The notes beneath the pieces are model-generated. The model had not been told where the DNA came from and made no database searches. It saw only the letters and a program-made list of their open reading frames with translations. The translations under genes were made by a program, and so were the position numbers. A stretch of 9,407 bases of DNA from contig MNUP01000031.1 of assembly GCA_001871075.1 (NCBI GenBank), forward strand, positions 1 to 9,407, written 5' to 3'. This document shows positions 2-8,739 of the stretch, piece after piece. This stretch comes from Candidatus Desantisbacteria bacterium CG1_02_49_89 (GTDB lineage Bacteria; Desantisbacteria; UBA1551). How positions within the stretch are numbered: position 1 is the first letter of the stretch; the number at the start of each line of letters is the position of its first letter.

Positions 2-112
2 CTGTGGACGTTCAATATCGGAGTGCCGGTGGCTTCGTCTCCGGCAGTGACCGGGAACGCGCTTTATGTCGGGGCGTATGACGGCAACGTTTACGCGTTC
101 GCGTCCCCTGTG
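2..112 (+). other. PQQ-like beta-propeller blade (last one, partial)
   Basis: The translation begins LWTFNIGVPVASSPAV and continues with LYVGAYDGNVYAFASP. This matches the classic PQQ/WD-like blade pattern: W..., P..SSPAV, a short turn, then YVG..DG.VYAF. It shows that more propeller blades probably lie upstream, so the gene starts outside the window. A PVVTPPPV linker then leads into the first Ig-like domain. Confidence 0.75.
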
Positions 113-3100
113 GTAACCCCGCCTCCTGTCAGCGACACGGCTTCGTTCATGTATATCAGTTCCGCGTCCGTTCAGGGGGATGGTTCTTCACCGTGCACCG
201 TAACAATCACACTCTTGGAATCAGACGGAACGCCTGTGCCTGAAAGGAGCGTGACGATCTCGTCGTCGCGCGGCCCGGCATATGACATTATCACCCAGCC
301 CGGTTCAACCACGGATTACAACGGGCAAAGCACCGCGGTTATAAGATCAGTATATACGGGAACAACGACCATTACCGCGCACGCAGGACCGGTGGAGGTT
401 ACGGGCGCGGTGAACAGGGATGGCTCAGCTGGCATATGGCGCTTTGACGAGAATTCCGGTGTTGCGGCCGGCGACGATTCCGGTAACAACAACACAGGGA
501 CGATAGCGAACGGGATATGGATACCCGGGAAGCGCGGACCCTGCCTGGATTTCAACGGCACCAGCGGGAAGGTTTCGCTTGCCCTGCAGCCGGAAATGTC
601 AGGCGGGTTCACGTTCATGGCATGGTGCAGGTGCGACAACCAGACCTGGTACCAGGATCTGTTCAACAACAACAGGTTCTTTATAAGGAAGGACGGGCCT
701 GCGGAGGGGAACGATTTTACCGCGTTCGTCAAGCTGACAGACGGAAGCCCCGAACCCAGGGCTTCGTCAGGTGTGGTTGCCGATACCGGGGCGTGGCATC
801 ATGTGGCTGCTTCCTGGGACGGGGTTTCCTTAAAGATCTACGCGGACGGGGATTTTAAGCAGTCGCAGGCCAGGCCAGGTTCCTTATACGAAACTCCTGT
901 TACCGCGCAGATAGGCGCTGGCGAGCAGGCAAGCCTTGATTCAAACTGGTGGGACGGCGCTATAGACGACGTGCGCCTTTACAGCAGGGCGCTGTCAGCT
1001 GACGAGATAAAGGCGGCCTGCGAGAACAGGGCGACAATAAGTTTCACCGCTTACGCGCAGGGCGGCGCGTATATAAGGCAGCCGCCCTTAGTCATCGCGC
1101 ACCGCGGATTTTCATCGCAGGCTCCTGAGAACACGCTCATAGCTTTCGAGAAAGCCATTGAAGTCGGGGCGGATTACGTGGAGCTGGACGTGTATACAAC
1201 TTCGGATAACGCTCTGGTAATAATGCACGACCCCACTGTTGATCGCACGACCGACGGCACCGGAACTGTTGCCAGCAAGACCCTCGCGGAACTGAAGGCC
1301 CTGGATGCCGGTTCCTGGTTCAGCGCGAGGTTCACAGGCGAAAGGGTGCCTACACTGGAAGAATCCCTGCTGGTCACTAAGGGCAGGATAAGGATGGTGA
1401 TTGAGATCAAAGCGGCTGACGTGGCAGCGGTATGCGCCCTTGTTGACAGCCTTGGAATGAGGGATGAGGTGATAATTTCGGCTTTCAGCATGGCTCAGGT
1501 CACCCAGGCGCACAACCTTGGTTTCAGGACAGTGGGCCTGATAGGTGACATCAAGACCTGGCAGAGCGTAAAGACCGCTTTGGGTGACGTTGTCGGGTGC
1601 GACCAGAGCTATCTTAACGACGATAGCTTTTCTTACGTTGCCGCGGCGGAAAGCGCGGGGCTGGAAGTGTGGCCCTGGACCTGCGACAATGAAATGGCTA
1701 TGATGAGGCTGACAGACCTGGGAGTGGGCGGGATCTACACAGACTATCCTGACTGGGCAATGAATATCAGGAACGATATAAAGCGAACAGGCTGGTGGGC
1801 AAGGTGGCAGGTTGAGGACAAGGCAAGGGACGGAGGCGCGGGCAATCCCACAGAATCAAACCGCAACATAATAAAGCCTTCGGCGATCAGGTCTTCAGGC
1901 ACCAGGATAAGGATAAAATTCCGTTCCCGCACAACCCTGCCTTCCGCGATGATCTTCTCAAGCGTGTATATCGCGCAGGCGGATACCGATACCAGGAACA
2001 TCGTGGATTCCACGAAGGCCCCGATCACATTCAGGGGTTCGGAAAGCATCACGCTCCCGCAGAATTCATACGAATACAGCGACTGGTTTGATTTTGATCT
2101 CAATGCCTCCAATACCTATTCGTTAACCTACCGCATGGACCCGGGATACGCGCGCGCGTGGAACGGGGCTGCGGGCACTGTGAACGCCTACTGGGCCGTG
2201 GGGGACAGCACGGCAATAAACGACTGGGCAGGGCTTTCCGGAGTGAACGCGAGCGTGTCTCTTTACAACATGGAGCTTATTGAGGTTCAGGGCCCCAGGG
2301 AAGGCACTTCTTATTTCCTGAATTCTCCTTCAGCTGTCCCTGCTGACGGCAGTTCTTCTTCGAGCGTTTCGTTCTTCGTGAAGGACAGCGTTGGCAGCGC
2401 CCTGGGCGGCAAGGCCTTGACTTTTTCAACGCCGCGCTCCGCCAAAGACATACTTATCCAGCCCGGGACAACTGACGCTAACGGCCAGGCAACAGGGACG
2501 ATAAAGTCTTTCTACGCGGGGCAAGGAGATGTAACCGGTTATTGCGGCCCGGAAAGGGTAATGCAGAATCTTCTTATTAATCCTTCTTTCGAGCAGGGTT
2601 CTTCAGGCTGGTCCCTTGGGGTAAACCACGCCATAGACACCGCCGCGCGCACGGGTTACGGGACAATAAGGTTCACAGGCACTGCTGCTCCGGGACAGGC
2701 TTCCTTTCAGACCGCAGGCGTTTCCGCGAATACCGCCTACAGGATAAGCGCCTGGATAAAAAGCAGTCTTTCGGCTGGCAGCGCGACGATAGACTGGCTT
2801 GAATACACCTCCGGGGATACTCTGCTTGAGGACGGCATCAATGTCGGGCCTTATTCAATGAACTCAGGGGTTTGGTCTTTCTGCTCCTGGAAGTTCACAT
2901 CAGAATCAACGACAGCAAAGGTCACAGTCAGGTTCGTGACAGACGGAAACCCCACAGGCACTGCCTGGTTTGACGATGCCAGACTTGAAAGGGTGCCTGC
3001 AGTGGATTTCAGGGCTACAAGATTAAAGTTCATCACCCCTTCATTCTATGCTGTCAGGAACAGCAATTCCCCGCAGATCGTTGTTGCGGCAGTCGGGGAG

Positions 3101-6100
3101 CTGGGTGACGATACTGACCCGGCTTTTTCAGAAACCGTTTCCGTTCTTTCTTCGTCTTCAGGCGGCAAGTTCTCAGTTTCAGGCACTCCATGGAAAGACA
3201 CGAGCGTCCTTAAGTTCGTATCCGGTTCAGCGGTTTTCTATTACAAGGACGCCAACACGGGCAGTCCCGTTATTACCGTTACACGTTACACGTTACACGT
3301 TGATACACAAACAGAGTTCATATACGACGCGAGTATGTCCGATACCCGCTCTTACCTTTCCTCCCAGGATTTCCTGGCCCTGCCTGACGGCGCTGATTCA
3401 ATAACTATTTTCGCTTTCATAATGGATACCTACGCGAATCCGATCTCGGGCAAAACCGTCACGCTTTCAGCTGCAAGGGGCAATTCCACGACTATCAGCG
3501 CAAACCCGCAGGTCACTGACGCGGACGGGCGCGCGACGTTCACTCTTTCTTCAGCAAATGCCGGCGTTGATACTATAAGCGCGTTCTGCAACGGCGAAAC
3601 ATTTTCAACGCTCTTCTTTGACGATTTTGAATTCCCGTCTTTTTCACAGGAAGCCTGGGTTGTTTATGACGGAGACTGGTCCTGCACCGGCGGTTATTAC
3701 AAAGGGCTGGACAGCGGGGACGACAATTATATCGCGTACGGTTCAGCTGCAGGCAGCGTGAACTGGAGGAATTACACGGTTGAGCTTGCGTTCAGAAGCG
3801 TTTCCTTCGGAAGCGACTGGAGGGACAGCGCCAGGGTGAGTTTCAGGTACAAGGACGCGGGTAACGCTTATACAGCGGATTTCATGAAGAACAACCACGT
3901 CCGCCTGCACAAGAAAAGCCAGGGCATTTCCACCGGCGATTCAGACTGCGCCGTTGACTACGACGCTGCAGCGATAGATTACGCGGCTGGCGGCTGGCAC
4001 ACCGTTAAAATAACATGCTTGGGGAATTACGTGCAAGCCTGGCTGGACGGCGTAAAGATATTCGACTGGCAGGATAACGATTACAACGGGGTAAGATGGG
4101 TGGAAAAAGGAAGGCTGATGCTTTCCGCGCGCAAAGCCAGCGGCGCGAGCGGGAACACGGAGATCCATTTCGACAATATCCGCGTTTATCCCTGCCTTGT
4201 GGAGTTCTCCCAGCCTTCTCCCAGCGCGATCAGTTCCTACATAACGTTCAGCCCTTATGATGTTATTACGGGCGGAAACTCAGAATGCGTTGTTGTTGTT
4301 ACGATTAACGACGCGGACGGCGTTCCGCTTTCCGGCAAAACTATCACGTTTGTTACCGCGAGGGGAAGTTCCGATACAGTTACACCTTCAGGCTCCCAGG
4401 TAACAGGCGCGGACGGCAGCTGTACCTACACGATAAAGTCAGACCTTGCAGGATTGGATACCATTACCGCATTCTGTTCCGGGACGATCTCGCGAGGGAT
4501 AAACAAATACGGGGCAAGGGGTATCTGGCACCTGGACGGCAGCACCGCGGACGCGTCAGGCTGCGGTAACAACGGTGTTAACACCGGTGCTGTCTGGACA
4601 GAGGGAAGGTACGGCTCAGGCCTGCAGTTTGACGGCGTAAACGATTACGTAAGGGTAACCGATACGGACACTCTTGATGTAACCGACGCGATCACTATAG
4701 AGGCGTGGATCTACCCCACAGGCCTTCCGAATTCCTACAACTCAATAGCGGCAAAGTACTGGTCAGCTTCGAACCAGAGGTCGTACGAATTCACGATCTC
4801 GGCTGCCACGCAGAAACTGCAGGTATGGCTTTCCACCAACGGCACAGGCGGCGCGGCGTACGACGGGAACGGCGTCATACCGCTGAATGCATGGTCGCAC
4901 GCCGCGTTCACCTGGAACAGGGCGGACGGGAGCATAAAGATGTATCTGAACGGCAATACCGACGCGATCCGCAGCGGCCCGGTTTCGGCGCTTTTCCCAA
5001 GCACAGCGGATTTCATCATAGGGGACAAGCACGACCTGGCGAACCACTTCAAGGGTATCATCGACGAGCTCAGGATCTACAGCCGGGTCCTGGCAGACGA
5101 TGAAATAAGATCTTCCTATAACGCGAAAGCAAACTTTTTATTCGTGTCCTTTGAACCAAGCCTTGCGTTCGTGTCTTCACCGGTCACAACCACTGCCAAC
5201 AACCCGTCTCCCTATATAACCGTGGAAGCAAGGATCGGCTCAGGCGTAAAAGACACAACGTTCAACGACTCGGTTATCCTTTCTTCGTCTTCTTCAGGCG
5301 GAAGGTTCTCAACAAGCAGGACTGCCTGGGCTGATACCACGGTTATTTTCTTCTCAGCCGGGTCAGGCAGTTTTTATTATAAGGATCCTGCGGCGGGGAA
5401 TCCTGTAATAACCGCGTATCGCGTATTGTTTATCGCGGATACACAAACTGAGACGATATTAGAGCAGGGAGTGAACGAGACCGCTTCATACATAACCTTT
5501 ACGCCTTACCGGATACTTGCGGATGGGACATCTGTATGCTCCGCGGTTGTGACCATAAGCGACACATTCGGGTTCCCGATGAGCGGCAGGACAGTGACTC
5601 TTATAACAGCCAGGGGAGCGCAGGACACTGTAGCCGGAAATCCGGGGACAACGGATACATCCGGGCAAAGCGTGTTTTCAATATCTTCGATATATTTAGG
5701 CCAGGACACGATAACCGCTGTTTGCGGCGCGAACACTGTTACAAGGGGTGTGCAGAAATATTCCGCTGTTGCCATATGGCACCTGGACACTGACACGAAC
5801 GACGTATCCGGCAACGGCTATAACGGCATCCTGCGCGGAGCGCTCTGGACAAGCGATGGTTTCGGCTCAGCCGCGGAATTCGACGGCGTTAACGACTACA
5901 TAACAATTCCTGCCATGAACGTGACTATGACCGGGGTCACTATCGAAGCGTGGGTAAAACTGCACAAACTTCCTGCCGAGATGCCGGAGAACATAGGCGG
6001 GATATACGATTCGCTGGACGATAAATACATTCTGTATGAAGACAAGGGTAACAACGAGCTCAGGTTCAAGGTCACAACCGGGGTCAGCGCTGAGCGGCCC

Positions 6101-7384
6101 GGGATCCCCGCGGCTTCGCTTGTCAAGGACCAGTGGGTCCACATAGCAGGCGTGTATAACGGGACCCAGGCAAAGATCTATATGAACGGGACCCTGCGGG
6201 ACACGCACGCGCTTACCGGCGCGATCTCAGGCGCGCAGAACGCGGCAATAGGAAGGAACGGGCTGGATACAACCGCTTATTTCGACGGGATGGTCGACGA
6301 GGTCAGGATATACAACAGGGCGTTCAGCCCTGAGGAGGTCAGGGCGGAGTATGAATCGCGCGCGAACATCTATTTCACGGCGAGCATGCTGAATATCACC
6401 ACTCCCCAGTTCAGGATAAGGGCAGGGGACACTTCGCCGCTTATGATAGTAGCGGCTCAGGATGCGAGCATGAACACCGACGTTTCATTCAATAATACAA
6501 TAAACCTATCCACAAGCTCTAATTCAGGTTCATTTTCAGTATCAGATGTTCTCTGGCAGAATACCAGTTCAATAACGTTCTCAAGCGGCGTCGGTTCTTT
6601 CTATTATAGGGATTTCGCCGTCGGTTATCCTGTGCTGACTGCTGACCACTGGCCACTGACCACTGATACACAAACCGAAACAGTTTCCATCCGCGCTCTC
6701 AAGTTCGCGAACACCGTGCCGTTCACGATAACAAGCATATCAACTGCCCCTGTGTTCTTAAAGGCAGAAGACGGTTCTGGGAATACAGCGGTTCTCTTTA
6801 ACGATACGGTTCAACTGCTGACCACTTCAGCAAAAGGTTCGTTCTCCGTGTCAGGCACGATCTGGGCTAACACAAGCGTTATCTATCTTGCCTCAGGCTC
6901 AAAGACCGTATACTACAGGGACAAGACAGGGGGCAACCCTGTCATAACCGTTACCAGGACAGACTCCTGGACATGGACAGACACTCAACAGGAGACGGTT
7001 ACAAAACCAACGGTTCTTACTTCCAAGGTACAGATGAACCTGCGTTCAGGTGAAACAGGCGTAATGCCGATGATATTCTGGCAATCAGACACTGTTGAAT
7101 ACACTGTTTACATTAGAAACATTGGAACTGAAACTGCCATTAACAACATTGTCGTAGATACAAGGTCCTTTGATACTAATTCCAACAACGCGGTGGATTA
7201 CATATCCATGGATACGAACACGGTCGCAAACACGTGGGCTTATACAATAGATCCCGCGTTTACCGTTTGGATTGCAGGTGAACCTGCAACAGGCGCAAGT
7301 AACGTGAAAGGCCTTAGATGGAGAATCGCGGTCCTTGGGATAAATGAGAGCAAGGCGATTAGATTCCGCATCCGCGTTAAGTAG
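2..7384 (+). CDS. Giant mosaic surface/secreted protein (Ig-like, LamG, GDPD, DTQTE repeats), 5'-partial
   Basis: The frame is open from base 2 to TAG 7382-7384, giving 2,460 residues with the start upstream. Residues here are counted from the GTG at 23. Visible order: propeller blade (to about 30), Ig-like (38-128), LamG (137-335), GDPD (356-580), unassigned beta domain (590-757), Ig-like (762-846), CBM4/9-like (848-993), DTQTE repeat (995-1100), Ig-like (1106-1194), jelly-roll (1196-1392), Ig-like (1402-1490), LamG (1498-1703), DTQTE repeat (1706-1812), Ig-like (1819-1909), LamG (1915-2113), two DTQTE repeats (2116-2326), DUF11-like end (2330-2453). Such domains are typical of extracellular adhesion or polymer-binding proteins. 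Paired cysteines in the Ig-like domains at 1402-1490 and 1819-1909 (C1422/C1485, C1839/C1901) fit export. No LPXTG, PEP-CTERM or C-terminal membrane helix is visible. The GDPD domain suggests hydrolysis of glycerophosphodiesters outside the cytoplasm; this role is inferred. No shift in frame is seen. Confidence 0.95.
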   Translation: MWTFNIGVPVASSPAVTGNALYVGAYDGNVYAFASPVVTPPPVSDTASFMYISSASVQGDGSSPCTVTITLLESDGTPVPERSVTISSSRGPAYDIITQPGSTTDYNGQSTAVIRSVYTGTTTITAHAGPVEVTGAVNRDGSAGIWRFDENSGVAAGDDSGNNNTGTIANGIWIPGKRGPCLDFNGTSGKVSLALQPEMSGGFTFMAWCRCDNQTWYQDLFNNNRFFIRKDGPAEGNDFTAFVKLTDGSPEPRASSGVVADTGAWHHVAASWDGVSLKIYADGDFKQSQARPGSLYETPVTAQIGAGEQASLDSNWWDGAIDDVRLYSRALSADEIKAACENRATISFTAYAQGGAYIRQPPLVIAHRGFSSQAPENTLIAFEKAIEVGADYVELDVYTTSDNALVIMHDPTVDRTTDGTGTVASKTLAELKALDAGSWFSARFTGERVPTLEESLLVTKGRIRMVIEIKAADVAAVCALVDSLGMRDEVIISAFSMAQVTQAHNLGFRTVGLIGDIKTWQSVKTALGDVVGCDQSYLNDDSFSYVAAAESAGLEVWPWTCDNEMAMMRLTDLGVGGIYTDYPDWAMNIRNDIKRTGWWARWQVEDKARDGGAGNPTESNRNIIKPSAIRSSGTRIRIKFRSRTTLPSAMIFSSVYIAQADTDTRNIVDSTKAPITFRGSESITLPQNSYEYSDWFDFDLNASNTYSLTYRMDPGYARAWNGAAGTVNAYWAVGDSTAINDWAGLSGVNASVSLYNMELIEVQGPREGTSYFLNSPSAVPADGSSSSSVSFFVKDSVGSALGGKALTFSTPRSAKDILIQPGTTDANGQATGTIKSFYAGQGDVTGYCGPERVMQNLLINPSFEQGSSGWSLGVNHAIDTAARTGYGTIRFTGTAAPGQASFQTAGVSANTAYRISAWIKSSLSAGSATIDWLEYTSGDTLLEDGINVGPYSMNSGVWSFCSWKFTSESTTAKVTVRFVTDGNPTGTAWFDDARLERVPAVDFRATRLKFITPSFYAVRNSNSPQIVVAAVGELGDDTDPAFSETVSVLSSSSGGKFSVSGTPWKDTSVLKFVSGSAVFYYKDANTGSPVITVTRYTLHVDTQTEFIYDASMSDTRSYLSSQDFLALPDGADSITIFAFIMDTYANPISGKTVTLSAARGNSTTISANPQVTDADGRATFTLSSANAGVDTISAFCNGETFSTLFFDDFEFPSFSQEAWVVYDGDWSCTGGYYKGLDSGDDNYIAYGSAAGSVNWRNYTVELAFRSVSFGSDWRDSARVSFRYKDAGNAYTADFMKNNHVRLHKKSQGISTGDSDCAVDYDAAAIDYAAGGWHTVKITCLGNYVQAWLDGVKIFDWQDNDYNGVRWVEKGRLMLSARKASGASGNTEIHFDNIRVYPCLVEFSQPSPSAISSYITFSPYDVITGGNSECVVVVTINDADGVPLSGKTITFVTARGSSDTVTPSGSQVTGADGSCTYTIKSDLAGLDTITAFCSGTISRGINKYGARGIWHLDGSTADASGCGNNGVNTGAVWTEGRYGSGLQFDGVNDYVRVTDTDTLDVTDAITIEAWIYPTGLPNSYNSIAAKYWSASNQRSYEFTISAATQKLQVWLSTNGTGGAAYDGNGVIPLNAWSHAAFTWNRADGSIKMYLNGNTDAIRSGPVSALFPSTADFIIGDKHDLANHFKGIIDELRIYSRVLADDEIRSSYNAKANFLFVSFEPSLAFVSSPVTTTANNPSPYITVEARIGSGVKDTTFNDSVILSSSSSGGRFSTSRTAWADTTVIFFSAGSGSFYYKDPAAGNPVITAYRVLFIADTQTETILEQGVNETASYITFTPYRILADGTSVCSAVVTISDTFGFPMSGRTVTLITARGAQDTVAGNPGTTDTSGQSVFSISSIYLGQDTITAVCGANTVTRGVQKYSAVAIWHLDTDTNDVSGNGYNGILRGALWTSDGFGSAAEFDGVNDYITIPAMNVTMTGVTIEAWVKLHKLPAEMPENIGGIYDSLDDKYILYEDKGNNELRFKVTTGVSAERPGIPAASLVKDQWVHIAGVYNGTQAKIYMNGTLRDTHALTGAISGAQNAAIGRNGLDTTAYFDGMVDEVRIYNRAFSPEEVRAEYESRANIYFTASMLNITTPQFRIRAGDTSPLMIVAAQDASMNTDVSFNNTINLSTSSNSGSFSVSDVLWQNTSSITFSSGVGSFYYRDFAVGYPVLTADHWPLTTDTQTETVSIRALKFANTVPFTITSISTAPVFLKAEDGSGNTAVLFNDTVQLLTTSAKGSFSVSGTIWANTSVIYLASGSKTVYYRDKTGGNPVITVTRTDSWTWTDTQQETVTKPTVLTSKVQMNLRSGETGVMPMIFWQSDTVEYTVYIRNIGTETAINNIVVDTRSFDTNSNNAVDYISMDTNTVANTWAYTIDPAFTVWIAGEPATGASNVKGLRWRIAVLGINESKAIRFRIRVK
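134..406 (+). other. Ig-like (Big_1/invasin-type) domain 1
   Basis: Residues 38-128. The pattern is repeated in all five copies: a polar opening strand, G.S.C.V.[IV]T[IL], a D.DG.P[VL]....VT[IL]...RG turn, T.D..GQ......S...G.TTITA. This copy has the first cysteine (C58) but lacks the second one found in copies 4 and 5. It joins LamG 1 through a T.AVNRDGSAGIWRFD junction similar to those before LamG 2 and 3. Confidence 0.7.
431..1027 (+). other. LamG/concanavalin-like domain 1
   Basis: Residues 137-335. The landmarks are GIWRFDE at the start, DDSGNNNTGT, LDFNG, FTFMAWCR, W.H.VAASWDG..LKIYADG and GAIDDVRLYSRALSADEI at the end. This is the usual LamG_3-type jelly-roll signature, associated with carbohydrate or ligand binding. 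It is followed at once by the GDPD domain, where the other LamG copies are followed by a DTQTE repeat. Confidence 0.88.
1088..1762 (+). other. Glycerophosphodiester phosphodiesterase (GDPD) domain embedded in the mosaic protein
   Basis: Residues 356-580. The family signature is complete: AHRG (H360, R361), APENT (E369), GADYVELDV (E387, D389), MHDPTVDRTT (H402, D403), VIEIK (E461, K463), WPWTCDN and GIYTDYPDW. These are the metal-binding and acid/base residues of GDPD TIM barrels, which hydrolyse glycerophosphodiesters to glycerol-3-phosphate and an alcohol. The length of about 225 residues is normal for the family, so the domain is probably active. Its position between beta-sandwich adhesion modules suggests extracellular action on lipid head groups or polyol-phosphate polymers. 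The substrate cannot be read from the sequence. Confidence 0.92.
1790..2293 (+). other. Unassigned beta-rich domain after GDPD
   Basis: Residues 590-757. Alternating hydrophobic strands are visible, such as TRIRIKFRSR, MIFSSVYIAQ, YSLTYRMD, VNAYWAV and ASVSLYNMELIEV. The composition is rich in Trp, Tyr and Asn. It looks like a beta-sandwich of the carbohydrate-binding sort, but I do not recognise a named family. It appears only once and only behind the GDPD domain, so the two may work as a unit. Confidence 0.5.
2306..2560 (+). other. Ig-like domain 2
   Basis: Residues 762-846, following the same pattern as the other Ig-like copies: P[AS]DG.S.S.V.F.V.D..G..L.GK.LTF...R, T.D.NGQA.GTI.S..AG...VTGYCG. 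It has the late cysteine (C841) but not the early one. It runs directly into the CBM4/9-like module. Confidence 0.7.
2564..3001 (+). other. CBM4/9-like carbohydrate-binding module
   Basis: Residues 848-993. The opening NLLINPSFEQGSSGW is the hallmark of CBM_4_9-type modules. A.TGYG.IRF, YRISAWIKS and a closing AWFDDARLERV strand follow. The length of about 145 residues fits. Sugar-chain binding is expected for the family, but the ligand is unknown here. Confidence 0.75.
3005..3322 (+). repeat. DTQTE repeat, copy 1
   Basis: Residues 995-1100 of the giant protein. Shared landmarks are SP.I.VAA, a D...F..TV.L/VLSSSS.GG.FS.S....W.DTS stretch, F.SGS..FYYKD...G.PVIT, a short linker, then DTQTE. 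The linker here is TRYTLHV, encoded by three tandem heptamers. I do not recognise a named family. Confidence 0.85.
3277..3301 (+). repeat. Heptanucleotide tandem array (CGTTACA)3 inside the coding sequence
   Basis: Three perfect CGTTACA copies occupy 3277-3297, followed by a partial CGTT. Read in codon phase, ACACGTT is repeated three times (3281-3301) between GTT and GAT. Twenty-one bases equal seven codons, so the frame is kept and the peptide is TRYTLHV. Confidence 0.95.
3338..3604 (+). other. Ig-like domain 3
   Basis: Residues 1106-1194, showing the Ig-like copy pattern: L.DGADSITIFAF..D.Y.NPISGKTVTLSAARG, VTDADGRATFTLSS, G.DTISAFCNG. Only the late cysteine (C1189) is present. The following module starts immediately with LFFDDFE. 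Confidence 0.7.
3608..4198 (+). other. Concanavalin-type jelly-roll module (LamG/3-keto-disaccharide-hydrolase-like)
   Basis: Residues 1196-1392. Landmarks are FFDDFE near the start, YTVELAFRS, ARVSFRYKD...YTADF, GGWHTVKITCLGNYVQAWLDGVKIFDW and IHFDNIRVYP at the end. These strands resemble the laminarinase-like fold seen in DUF1080 and LamG relatives. I see no clear catalytic pair, so a binding role is more likely. It is distinct from the three IWH/RFD-type LamG copies and is not followed by a DTQTE repeat. Confidence 0.65.
4226..4492 (+). other. Ig-like domain 4
   Basis: Residues 1402-1490. Pattern: SYITFSPY....GG.SECVVVVTI.DADGVPLSGKTITFVTARG, then VTGADGSCTYTIKS, LDTITAFCSG. C1422 and C1485 sit at matching positions to C1839 and C1901 of domain 5 and could form a disulfide. 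The GTISRGINKYGARGIWHLD junction is very close to that behind domain 5. Confidence 0.75.
4514..5131 (+). other. LamG/concanavalin-like domain 2
   Basis: Residues 1498-1703. The LamG_3 signature is clear: GIWHLDGS..D.SG.GNNG, GLQFDGVNDYVRV, ITIEAWIYPT, W.H.AFTWN..DGSIKMYLNG, FIIGDK and GIIDELRIYSRVLADDEI. It is followed directly by DTQTE repeat 2. Confidence 0.92.
5138..5458 (+). repeat. DTQTE repeat, copy 2
   Basis: Residues 1706-1812 of the giant protein, with SPYITVEA, LSSSSSGGRFS, W.DTT, GSGSFYYKD, GNPVIT, linker YRVLFIA and DTQTE. The serine run has five residues against four in copy 1, with the flanking bases nearly the same. That suggests slippage by one TCN codon. Confidence 0.85.
5414..5441 (+). 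repeat. Heptanucleotide array (consensus GCGTATC) inside the coding sequence
   Basis: Four 7-base units start at 5414, 5421, 5428 and 5435: two near-perfect and two decayed copies of GCGTATC. In codon phase the linker is TATCGCG, a degenerate copy, then TATCGCG (5417-5437). It sits between GCG and GAT, exactly 21 bases, encoding YRVLFIA. Confidence 0.8.
5477..5749 (+). other. Ig-like domain 5
   Basis: Residues 1819-1909: ASYITFTPY.ILADGTSVCSAVVTISD.FG.PMSGRTVTLITARG, TTDTSGQSVFSISS, GQDTITAVCG. The cysteines C1839 and C1901 match those of domain 4. It is the closest copy to domain 4 by eye, which points to a duplication of the Ig-LamG pair. Confidence 0.75.
5765..6361 (+). other. LamG/concanavalin-like domain 3
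   Basis: Residues 1915-2113: AIWHLDTDTNDVSGNGYNG, AEFDGVNDYITI, VTIEAWVKL, W.HIAGVYNGTQAKIYMNG, AAIGRNG and GMVDEVRIYNRAFSPEEV. It is a standard LamG_3-type module, followed by two DTQTE repeats. Confidence 0.92.
6368..6685 (+). repeat. DTQTE repeat, copy 3
   Basis: Residues 2116-2221: F.I.AGDTSPLMIVAAQD, D.SFNNTINLSTSSNSGSFSVS, W.NTS, GSFYYRD, GYPVLT, linker DHWPLTT and DTQTE. The linker is again encoded by heptamers, of a third sequence. Confidence 0.85.
6635..6669 (+). repeat. Heptanucleotide array (consensus CTGACCA) inside the coding sequence
   Basis: Seven-base units start at 6635, 6642, 6649, 6656 and 6663. The middle three differ from each other at a single base. In codon phase GACCACT is repeated three times (6644-6664, the middle copy GGCCACT) between GCT and GAT, encoding DHWPLTT. 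Confidence 0.92.
6686..7000 (+). repeat. DTQTE repeat, copy 4 (divergent)
   Basis: Residues 2222-2326: F.I...STAPVFLKAED, FNDTVQLLTTSAKGSFSVS, W.NTSVI, KTVYYRD, GNPVIT, a nine-residue linker, then DTQQE. Here the linker DNA is not heptameric. It holds a perfect inverted repeat, CCAGGA 6954-6959 with TCCTGG 6965-6970, and then a doubled TGGACA. Confidence 0.8.
7010..7384 (+). other. DUF11-like C-terminal domain of the giant protein
   Basis: Residues 2330-2453: QSDTVEYTVYIRNIGTETAINNIVVDT and a final GLRWRIAVLGINESKAIRFRIRV strand. V.Y.[IV]...N.G...A.N..V.D is the usual pattern of DUF11/conserved-repeat beta-sandwiches. The protein ends three bases into the first hairpin unit, with no recognisable sorting signal. 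Confidence 0.65.
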
Positions 7385-7903: not shown

Positions 7904-8716
7904 ATGCATCCGGCTATGGCTGATTCTTTGAAACGCCTGCTGAAGCGATTATCCGAAGATAAAAGGTGCCTGGGTATTTTTCTCAGTGGTTCTTACGCGA
8001 AGCAGACCGAGGACGAATATTCTGACCTGGACCTGGTCGTTGTAGCGGAAAGATCGGGTTACACGGAATTCAGGGACAGCCTGCGCAGGGTCTGCGAAGA
8101 AATTATGGGCTCGATACCCGCGTGGCTGCCTGAGGGCGAGACCCCTGAAGCCGTGAACTACGCCTTCCTTTTTGAGGCAGAAGACGGTATATTTCTCTAC
8201 GATGTTTATGTTATCAAGGATAAAGATCTTCCGAATTGCCACCCGTATGACGCGAAACACATATTGTTCGACCGGACAGGGGTTTTGGCAGGTTCTGTGA
8301 AAGAGCGCAGGCCCGCCGGCTTCAACGCGGACGATCTTTTAAGGATGGTAACCTGCTACTGGGTTTACATGTACCTGAACGGCAAGTACCTGAAACGCTC
8401 TGATGTTTACAAGCTGCTTTACATCCAGCAGACACTTTTCCAGGACCATATCGCGGTCCTGCATGCTTTCTGCCCTGACAAGGACTGGACTTGGTGGGCG
8501 GTAAACGTCAAGTACCTGACGAAAACTAAAAGAGAAGAAATGCTCATCTATTTTAAGAACACCACTCCTAAGGACATAGCCTCGGTTCTCAAGAAAGAAA
8601 TGGACATATTTTCCCAAGACGCGAAAAAGGCCTGCCTGAAATACGGCCTGGAATATCCCGCAGACGCCGAGAAGGCGGTGCGAAAGCATCTTGTAGAATT
8701 TTTCAGTAACAAGTAA
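7904..8716 (+). CDS. Nucleotidyltransferase-fold protein (pol-beta superfamily, aminoglycoside-adenylyltransferase-like), 270 aa
   Basis: The N-terminal half carries the nucleotidyltransferase signature: FLSGSYAK (G29, S30), DEYSDLDLVVV (D41, D43), and a later strand FLYDVYVI whose D100 fits the third metal-binding carboxylate. All catalytic positions look intact. Residues 140-270 are predicted by eye to be mostly helical with many aromatic and charged residues. This is like the C-terminal helical domain of stand-alone transferases such as the streptomycin/aminoglycoside adenylyltransferase group. It probably moves a nucleotide from an NTP to a small molecule or protein; the acceptor is not known. 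ATG 7904 is chosen because AAGGGAG (7892-7898) lies five bases upstream; ATG 7916 has no such site. The gene is a single unit between its own promoter and repeats. Its last codons (SNK, TAA) lie in a heptamer array. Confidence 0.9.
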   Translation: MHPAMADSLKRLLKRLSEDKRCLGIFLSGSYAKQTEDEYSDLDLVVVAERSGYTEFRDSLRRVCEEIMGSIPAWLPEGETPEAVNYAFLFEAEDGIFLYDVYVIKDKDLPNCHPYDAKHILFDRTGVLAGSVKERRPAGFNADDLLRMVTCYWVYMYLNGKYLKRSDVYKLLYIQQTLFQDHIAVLHAFCPDKDWTWWAVNVKYLTKTKREEMLIYFKNTTPKDIASVLKKEMDIFSQDAKKACLKYGLEYPADAEKAVRKHLVEFFSNK

Positions 8717-8739
8717 CAAACGCCAAGTAACAAGTTTAA
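8705..8739 (+). repeat. Heptanucleotide array (AGTAACA) spanning the 3' end and stop codon of the nucleotidyltransferase gene
   Basis: Units of seven bases start at 8705, 8712, 8719, 8726 and 8733. The first, second and fourth are exactly AGTAACA; the third and fifth are degenerate. The gene's stop TAA (8714-8716) lies in unit two. The heptamer resembles the reverse complement of the array at 3277 (TGTAACG). Confidence 0.92.

Follow-up and report, generated by a model that had tools for sequence, protein, structure and literature searches.

How do homologous segments of a single protein come to be encoded by three different seven-base repeats? The question is raised by a contig of 9,407 nucleotides (contig C91 of the 2.48-Mb draft genome G000, analysed over its whole length and termed here the window), which carries the gene of a giant secreted-type repeat protein. 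In addition to Big_1, LamG-like, GDPD, and CBM-like domains recognized by Pfam, this protein contains four copies of a domain of about 105–120 residues, termed here the DTQTE domain, that no Pfam family holds. The features concerned are as follows:

2..7384, + strand: gene of the giant secreted-type repeat protein, open at its 5' end (ORF calling and Pfam)
2999..3370, + strand: DTQTE domain copy 1, an Ig-like beta sandwich (pLDDT 91.6)
3272..3301, + strand: array 1, in copy 1, (ATTACCG)(TTACACG)3TT, with three perfect units of ACACGTT at 3281-3301
5159..5497, + strand: DTQTE domain copy 2
5408..5437, + strand: array 2, in copy 2, ATAACCG CGTATCG CGTATTG TTTATCG CG, of the TATCGCG family
6371..6688, + strand: DTQTE domain copy 3
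6635..6664, + strand: array 3, in copy 3, CTGACTG CTGACCA CTGGCCA CTGACCA CT, of the GACCACT family
6698..7003, + strand: DTQTE domain copy 4, with the longer non-heptameric segment TVTRTDSWTWT (ACC 6947 to ACA 6979)

A preliminary description of the locus had reported three tandem heptamers in each of copies 1 to 3, and all three arrays were recovered at those positions, two of them (arrays 1 and 3) independently by Tandem Repeats Finder. The core of array 2 (5417-5437) reads TATCGCG/TATTGTT/TATCGCG, that of array 3 (6644-6664) reads GACCACT/GGCCACT/GACCACT, and GATACACAAAC lies directly 3' of each array (at 3302, 5438, and 6665). The 21-base cores are as described, but the repeat tract is nearer to 30 bases and begins at codon -2, an upstream extension that explains why the codon preceding each core resembles the end of the heptamer. 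When the same peptides were encoded by synonymous codons sampled from the codon usage of the domain, the lag-7 match of the three copies was reached in only 0.005%, 0.14%, and 0.02% of simulations, respectively, which excludes a chance origin of these arrays. In array 3, three perfect units of GACCACT would produce a stop codon (GAC CAC TGA), and the single change holds the frame open; nor need its variant unit represent decay, because intergenic arrays of the same family (e.g., TGACCAC TCGCCAC TGACCAC, at L095:9429) also have a variant unit in their middle.

The arrays had been placed in linkers of the protein. However, the AlphaFold2 model based on 33 DTQTE copies, which is confident (pLDDT 91.6) and matches remote Ig-like domains such as those in GH2 beta-galactosidases (identity about 15%), assigns the tract to two beta-strands (E91-96 and E99-105): the heptamer-coded residues 94-101 run from the end of the former through a tight turn into the first residues of the latter. 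Because it lies in paired strands of the model, the tract is predicted to be part of the fold, i.e., the last beta-hairpin of the Ig-like domain, and not a linker between domains. The genome contains 94 copies of the domain; YYKD and DTQ are 17 residues apart in each of the 17 heptameric copies tested, as they are in 41 of 54 non-heptameric ones. The proposal that the arrays measure 21 bases as the smallest heptamer array that keeps the frame therefore does not hold, since copies without heptamers share this length, and the conserved quantity is the length of the domain, into which the heptamers fit. All 18 heptameric copies have Leu or Phe at residue 6 of the tract, and Arg is often found at residue 3; that residue 6 is kept hydrophobic by codons as different as TTA, CTT, CTC, CTA, CTG, and TTT indicates that the protein filters what stays. 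One non-heptameric copy (L072; C70:3450-3770) encodes ASHWDLTTDTQT, resembling the ADHWPLTT peptide of GACCACT arrays with the period lost from the DNA; it may be an ancient array of which only the protein sequence has been maintained.

Period-7 arrays recur at this tract throughout the genome. Of the 94 copies, 61 have a clean 8-residue segment and can be scored, and their lag-7 identities are distributed bimodally, with 18 copies reaching at least 0.65 (the threshold at which we call a copy heptameric), 12 of these reaching at least 0.75, and the remainder at or below 0.47. At lags 4, 5, 6, 8, 9, 10, and 11, none of the 61 copies reaches 0.75. Heptameric copies belong to four clear families, TTACACG (four copies), CTTATCG/CGTATCG (nine), CTATGAG/CTATCAG (two), and CTGACCA/CTGGCCA (two), plus one copy without a clear family. 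Read in phase, the tract consists of four units and two bases (30 bases, codon -2 to +7), the first unit being imperfect because the same bases also encode the conserved V-I/L-T. This first unit matches its own array at 4.06 of 7 bases, as opposed to 3.42 for the seeds of other classes and 2.73 for non-heptameric copies. The period-7 excess that the preliminary description anticipated in further copies of the domain is thus present in 18 of the 61 copies of this genome but absent from the four copies that could be scored in G001, the one relative from its order. Moreover, all ten imperfect arrays within 28.6 kb of domain DNA are situated at the hairpin tract, where their density is 6.8 per kb, as compared with 0.094 per kb for coding DNA elsewhere and 1.9 per kb for non-coding DNA (Poisson p = 6e-16 and 6e-4, respectively; p = 1e-5 vs. 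coding DNA if only four independent families are counted). This hot spot probably results from the tolerance of the hairpin and from exchange between domain copies.

As had been surmised, arrays are not simply inherited with the domain: on a tree of the domain flanks, which has few columns, many unresolved forks, and weak support overall, heptamer class changes 16 times as compared with a mean of 17.3 for shuffled labels, and the TATCGC (9 rows) and TTACACG (4 rows) classes require 9 and 4 changes, no fewer than shuffled labels. Two well-supported pairs of sister copies differ in class. In one (SH-aLRT 95), C21:17380 has AGCTATG (CTATGAG) and C138:517 has TATCGC (CGTATCG), with flanks that are about 75–80% identical (45/60 and 48/60) and a tract identical at only 10/24 positions; in the other (SH-aLRT 97), the neighbours C58:8282 and C58:7154 have TTACACG and TATCGC (CTTATCG). 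Similarly, four paralogous genes with a homologous copy near the C-terminus have three different families among the four copies. Conversely, the distant copies C58:8282 and C58:13973 share 24/24 bases of the tract, including its odd last unit TTACTCGCT, when their flanks are only 57/53% identical. Over all pairs of the same class, arrays are 86% identical and flanks 60/57%, vs. 43% and 56/53% for pairs of different class, and the excess similarity of same-class pairs spans codons -2 to +7 and has vanished at codon 8 (0.80 vs. 0.80). An excess confined so sharply to the array is characteristic of the exchange of a short tract, and sequence comparison thus supports short-tract replacement as the probable process at the hairpin, although no donor-recipient event was caught among the domain copies of this genome and of its one relative in the order. 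The heptameric state as such, irrespective of class, is mildly clustered on the tree (12 changes vs. a shuffled mean of 15.6; 10/500 shuffles as low), so that part of its distribution reflects descent.

The same heptamers are dispersed well beyond the domain. Perfect period-7 arrays at least 18 bases long number 105 (10.4 per 100 kb) in a census of 1.007 Mb of the 2.48-Mb genome, for which some contigs were selected because they contain the domain and ORFs were called by a simple procedure; an order-3 Markov control yielded one such array, and any other period from 5 to 12 no more than 25. The density of perfect arrays is 1.1 per 100 kb in G001, the relative, and 0.7 across a mixed set drawn from other phyla. 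Imperfect period-7 arrays number 330 in the same 1.007 Mb, with controls near zero, and are mainly intergenic (1.9 per kb outside ORFs vs. 0.105 per kb inside). Occurring at many loci, with period 7 in excess and mainly between genes, the arrays are by definition of the STRR/heptanucleotide LSSR type. The 105 perfect arrays represent 49 heptamer classes, and members of all clear domain families are also present elsewhere in the genome, outside the domain. Within the TATCGC family, variability at unit positions 2/3 is 0.40/0.24 inside and 0.42/0.25 outside the domain, and the variable positions inside it partly coincide with codons left free by the protein. Within the 145 genomes searched, TTACACG arrays are confined to this lineage, and a heptamer vocabulary common to phyla was rejected, since TTACACGTTACACGTTACA, with 13 occurrences in this genome, is absent from 144 others. 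Plasmid searches with two families returned only scattered matches from Streptomyces, Deinococcus, and Phaeobacter. A palindromic core within the heptamers was likewise rejected, a palindromic tetramer being present in 25/49 classes vs. 22.3 after permutation of their letters. Periods 8, 9, and 10 are also over-represented among the imperfect arrays of this genome (115, 100, and 64 per Mb), as exemplified by intergenic runs resembling CACGGATTAA and CACAGAGA.

That the domain holds a dedicated insertion site, as had been proposed, is not supported, because these heptamers are also present in signal peptides, in enzyme loops, and in hairpins between genes. Of 93 coding arrays, 48 fall within the first 60 codons, at signal-peptide-like N-termini (e.g., FTLHVTRYT and TFQLSAL, the latter in TFQLSALSF); many such N-termini are encoded in part by TTACACG or CTTTCAG arrays (L095, L076, L105, L106, L111, L113, L077, and L078). 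Others occupy loops of conserved core enzymes: there are two in LeuRS, two in ThiL, three in a radical SAM protein, and further ones in PurN and a PALP-fold enzyme, in genes at L120:10555-13044, L101:17834-18979, L094:12712-15276, L080:3257-3931, and L109:13855-15000. One LeuRS array accompanies about 7–9 extra residues relative to homologues, i.e., it is an insertion, so that arrays do not always replace what was there; some array-bearing loops of ThiL and the radical SAM protein are about as long as those of array-free homologues, and the two situations together show that insertion and replacement both occur. A scan of genome contigs with LeuRS found no close relative. The ThiL orthologue of the relative (L200, G001:C76) carries other long inserts in the loops that bear arrays in G000, which suggests that another type of repeat uses these tolerant loops there.

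Between genes, many arrays form hairpins: 61/182 intergenic arrays have an inverted partner, compared with 10 in the control, and fold z-scores extend to -8.5. Pairing of two heptamer arms, as in hairpins of the P6b type (see below), was found for intergenic arrays only. Coding arrays are not single arms of such hairpins, given that their inverted partners (4/93) are no commoner than in the control (3). Hairpins of 80–140 bases with heptamer-array arms number 46 in 1 Mb (e.g., L246:2471-2586, L242:12378-12488, L088:7665-7795, L231:15826-15952, and L101:12570-12684). Those with ATTATGA arms have a common core like CAAGGATTTATTT-AAATAAATTCCTTG, and a similar core appears in elements with ATCCAGG arms (L100:99 and L246:40) and with period-9-like arms (L074:8361 and L229:2257), as though different repeat arms could be exchanged around a single palindromic core. 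Searches of the window and of three array-rich loci against Rfam gave no match.

Four heptamer families occupy a single 30-base tract at constant length, their class is uncoupled from the phylogeny of the domain, and the families are dispersed through the genome. The reading that we favour, with a probability of roughly 0.55, is heptamer expansion of the STRR/LSSR type, from which arrays are copied, as we infer, into a tolerant beta-hairpin and filtered by selection on the protein. New arrays would be born and lengthened somewhere in the genome by slippage or template switching in a 7-base register, and would enter the tract through short-tract replacement, directed by homology or microhomology, between dispersed arrays and domain copies, with the conserved FYYKD and DTQTE codons as flanking homology. 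The same route could pass arrays between domain copies, as putative gene conversion with a presumed direction of transfer. Only products that preserve the hairpin (unchanged in length, free of stops, with Leu at residue 6 and, usually, Arg at residue 3) would survive, and the array would afterwards diverge under selection at the protein level. A bolder version, which we offer only tentatively, is that the process is still active, a genome-wide pool of heptamers, represented also by the arms of intergenic hairpins, overwriting at equal length, and thereby rewriting, surface beta-strands, signal peptides, and core enzyme loops, a turnover not described as such.

Several other explanations have to be weighed against replacement from dispersed arrays. 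If each class had arisen once and spread by duplication of the whole domain, the arrays being inherited and merely decaying, one could account for the mild clustering of the heptameric state, for the GACCACT copies C58:4895 and C91:6371 (80% identical flanks and 23/24 of the array), and for C21:17041 and C138:835, which are in orthologous positions and have 22/24 bases in common. Such descent is nevertheless unlikely as the general explanation, in view of the two supported sister pairs of different class, of TATCGC and TTACACG changing as often as shuffled labels, and of same-class tracts far more alike than their flanks. We regard as improbable, to about the same degree, that each array arose in place by slippage from local codons without transfer between copies. 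The affinity of the first unit to its own array (4.06 of 7 vs. 3.42 and 2.73) would fit such an origin, as would the rank of seven-base units, for which polymerase slippage has been proposed, as the commonest long simple repeats in surveys of bacteria (reported in PMC4679880 and PMC4692102); however, slippage would lengthen the DNA, yet length is constant in all heptameric copies tested, and distant copies have derived variants in common and the same families exist outside the domain.

A programmed system of diversification or site-specific insertion, in which a reverse transcriptase or transposase targets the tract to vary surface domains, is distinctly less probable than either. It could draw on the concentration of 10/10 domain arrays in one tract, on the many intergenic arrays that are hairpin arms, and on ten matches to the Y1-transposase family (PF01797; contigs C83, C13, C100, C38, C80, C114, C23, C111, and C51). 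Hairpins are the kind of substrate used by REP-associated Y1 transposases. Target duplication and length change are absent, however, coding arrays lack inverted partners beyond the control level, arrays are found in signal peptides and core enzymes too, and no heptamer hairpins or arrays lie beside the Y1 genes in the six loci inspected. A diversity-generating retroelement was rejected: the genome has a single, partial RVT_1 match (on C119) and none near the gene, and differences between domains are swaps of whole arrays and not adenine-directed changes. Nine of the ten PF01797 matches are weaker than the single IS200-like one, and these proteins are possible movers of the hairpin repeats. Finally, we give next to no credence to the notion that codon bias, or selection for a repeated peptide, happens to yield period 7. 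The peptide is indeed constrained (Leu at residue 6, often Arg at residue 3), but synonymous-codon simulations match the observed lag-7 identity in no more than 0.02% of cases for the ten best copies, a figure that rises to at most 1.8% when all copies are considered, which refutes this origin for the clear cases; moreover, a three-base code cannot yield period 7, and the same heptamers exist in non-coding DNA.

Replacement by dispersed heptamer arrays would have partial counterparts in known systems. Surveys cited in PMC4679880 and PMC4692102 describe heptanucleotide long simple sequence repeats and the STRR heptamers of heterocystous cyanobacteria. These resemble our arrays in that units are 7 bases long, a genome has several families, most arrays are intergenic, period 7 dominates, and units vary within arrays, but differ in that we count 49 classes in 105 perfect arrays per 1 Mb and find one homologous protein segment recurrently occupied at equal length. 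In marine Beggiatoaceae, TAACTGA direct repeats are mainly just upstream of start codons, and heptamer repeats inside ORFs are mainly at protein ends (MacGregor 2015, PMC4679880). These too are dispersed arrays, some over stop codons or in ORFs, but involve a single heptamer and protein ends, as opposed to the fixed site of a repeated domain. The P6b stem of the cyanobacterial tRNA-Leu(UAA) intron contains degenerate heptanucleotide repeats of different classes at one position (PMC3488679): its heptamer pairing resembles the intergenic hairpins, and its class switching the DTQTE domain, but it is an RNA stem of varying copy number, whereas the tract here is protein-coding and constant in length. 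Rickettsia palindromic elements, which are palindromes of about 150 bases tolerated in frame in unrelated protein genes (PMC10969869), likewise show that repeats can be accommodated inside proteins; they insert, however, whereas the arrays here span 20–30 bases, lack an inverted partner, and often replace, and with domain length unchanged and partners at control level (4/93 vs. 3) we rejected an identity with these elements. In phase-variable simple sequence repeats, a change in copy number shifts frame or expression; the domain arrays are all in frame and at one length. We found no description in the open-access literature of different heptamer families at one position of a repeated domain at constant length.

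Although many bacteria are known to have heptamer repeats, these have been treated as intergenic curiosities whose preference for seven is unexplained. With 94 homologous domains, one position, and four families, this genome offers a natural experiment on the origin, spread, and protein-level filtering of arrays, and shows that the sequence of beta-strands within folded domains can come from repeat DNA. The DTQTE tract accordingly allows short-tract replacement by repeats to be tested, along with a little-studied repeat process that rewrites parts of folded proteins. The window itself also contains an array outside the repeat protein gene:

8705..8735, + strand: AGTAACA heptamer array, which includes the stop codon that ends the ORF at 7904-8716 and extends into intergenic DNA

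Its junction AAGTAACAAGTTTAAT recurs at L237:2202 (L237:2202-2237), and the presence of this junction at both loci indicates that array ends may be conserved between loci.
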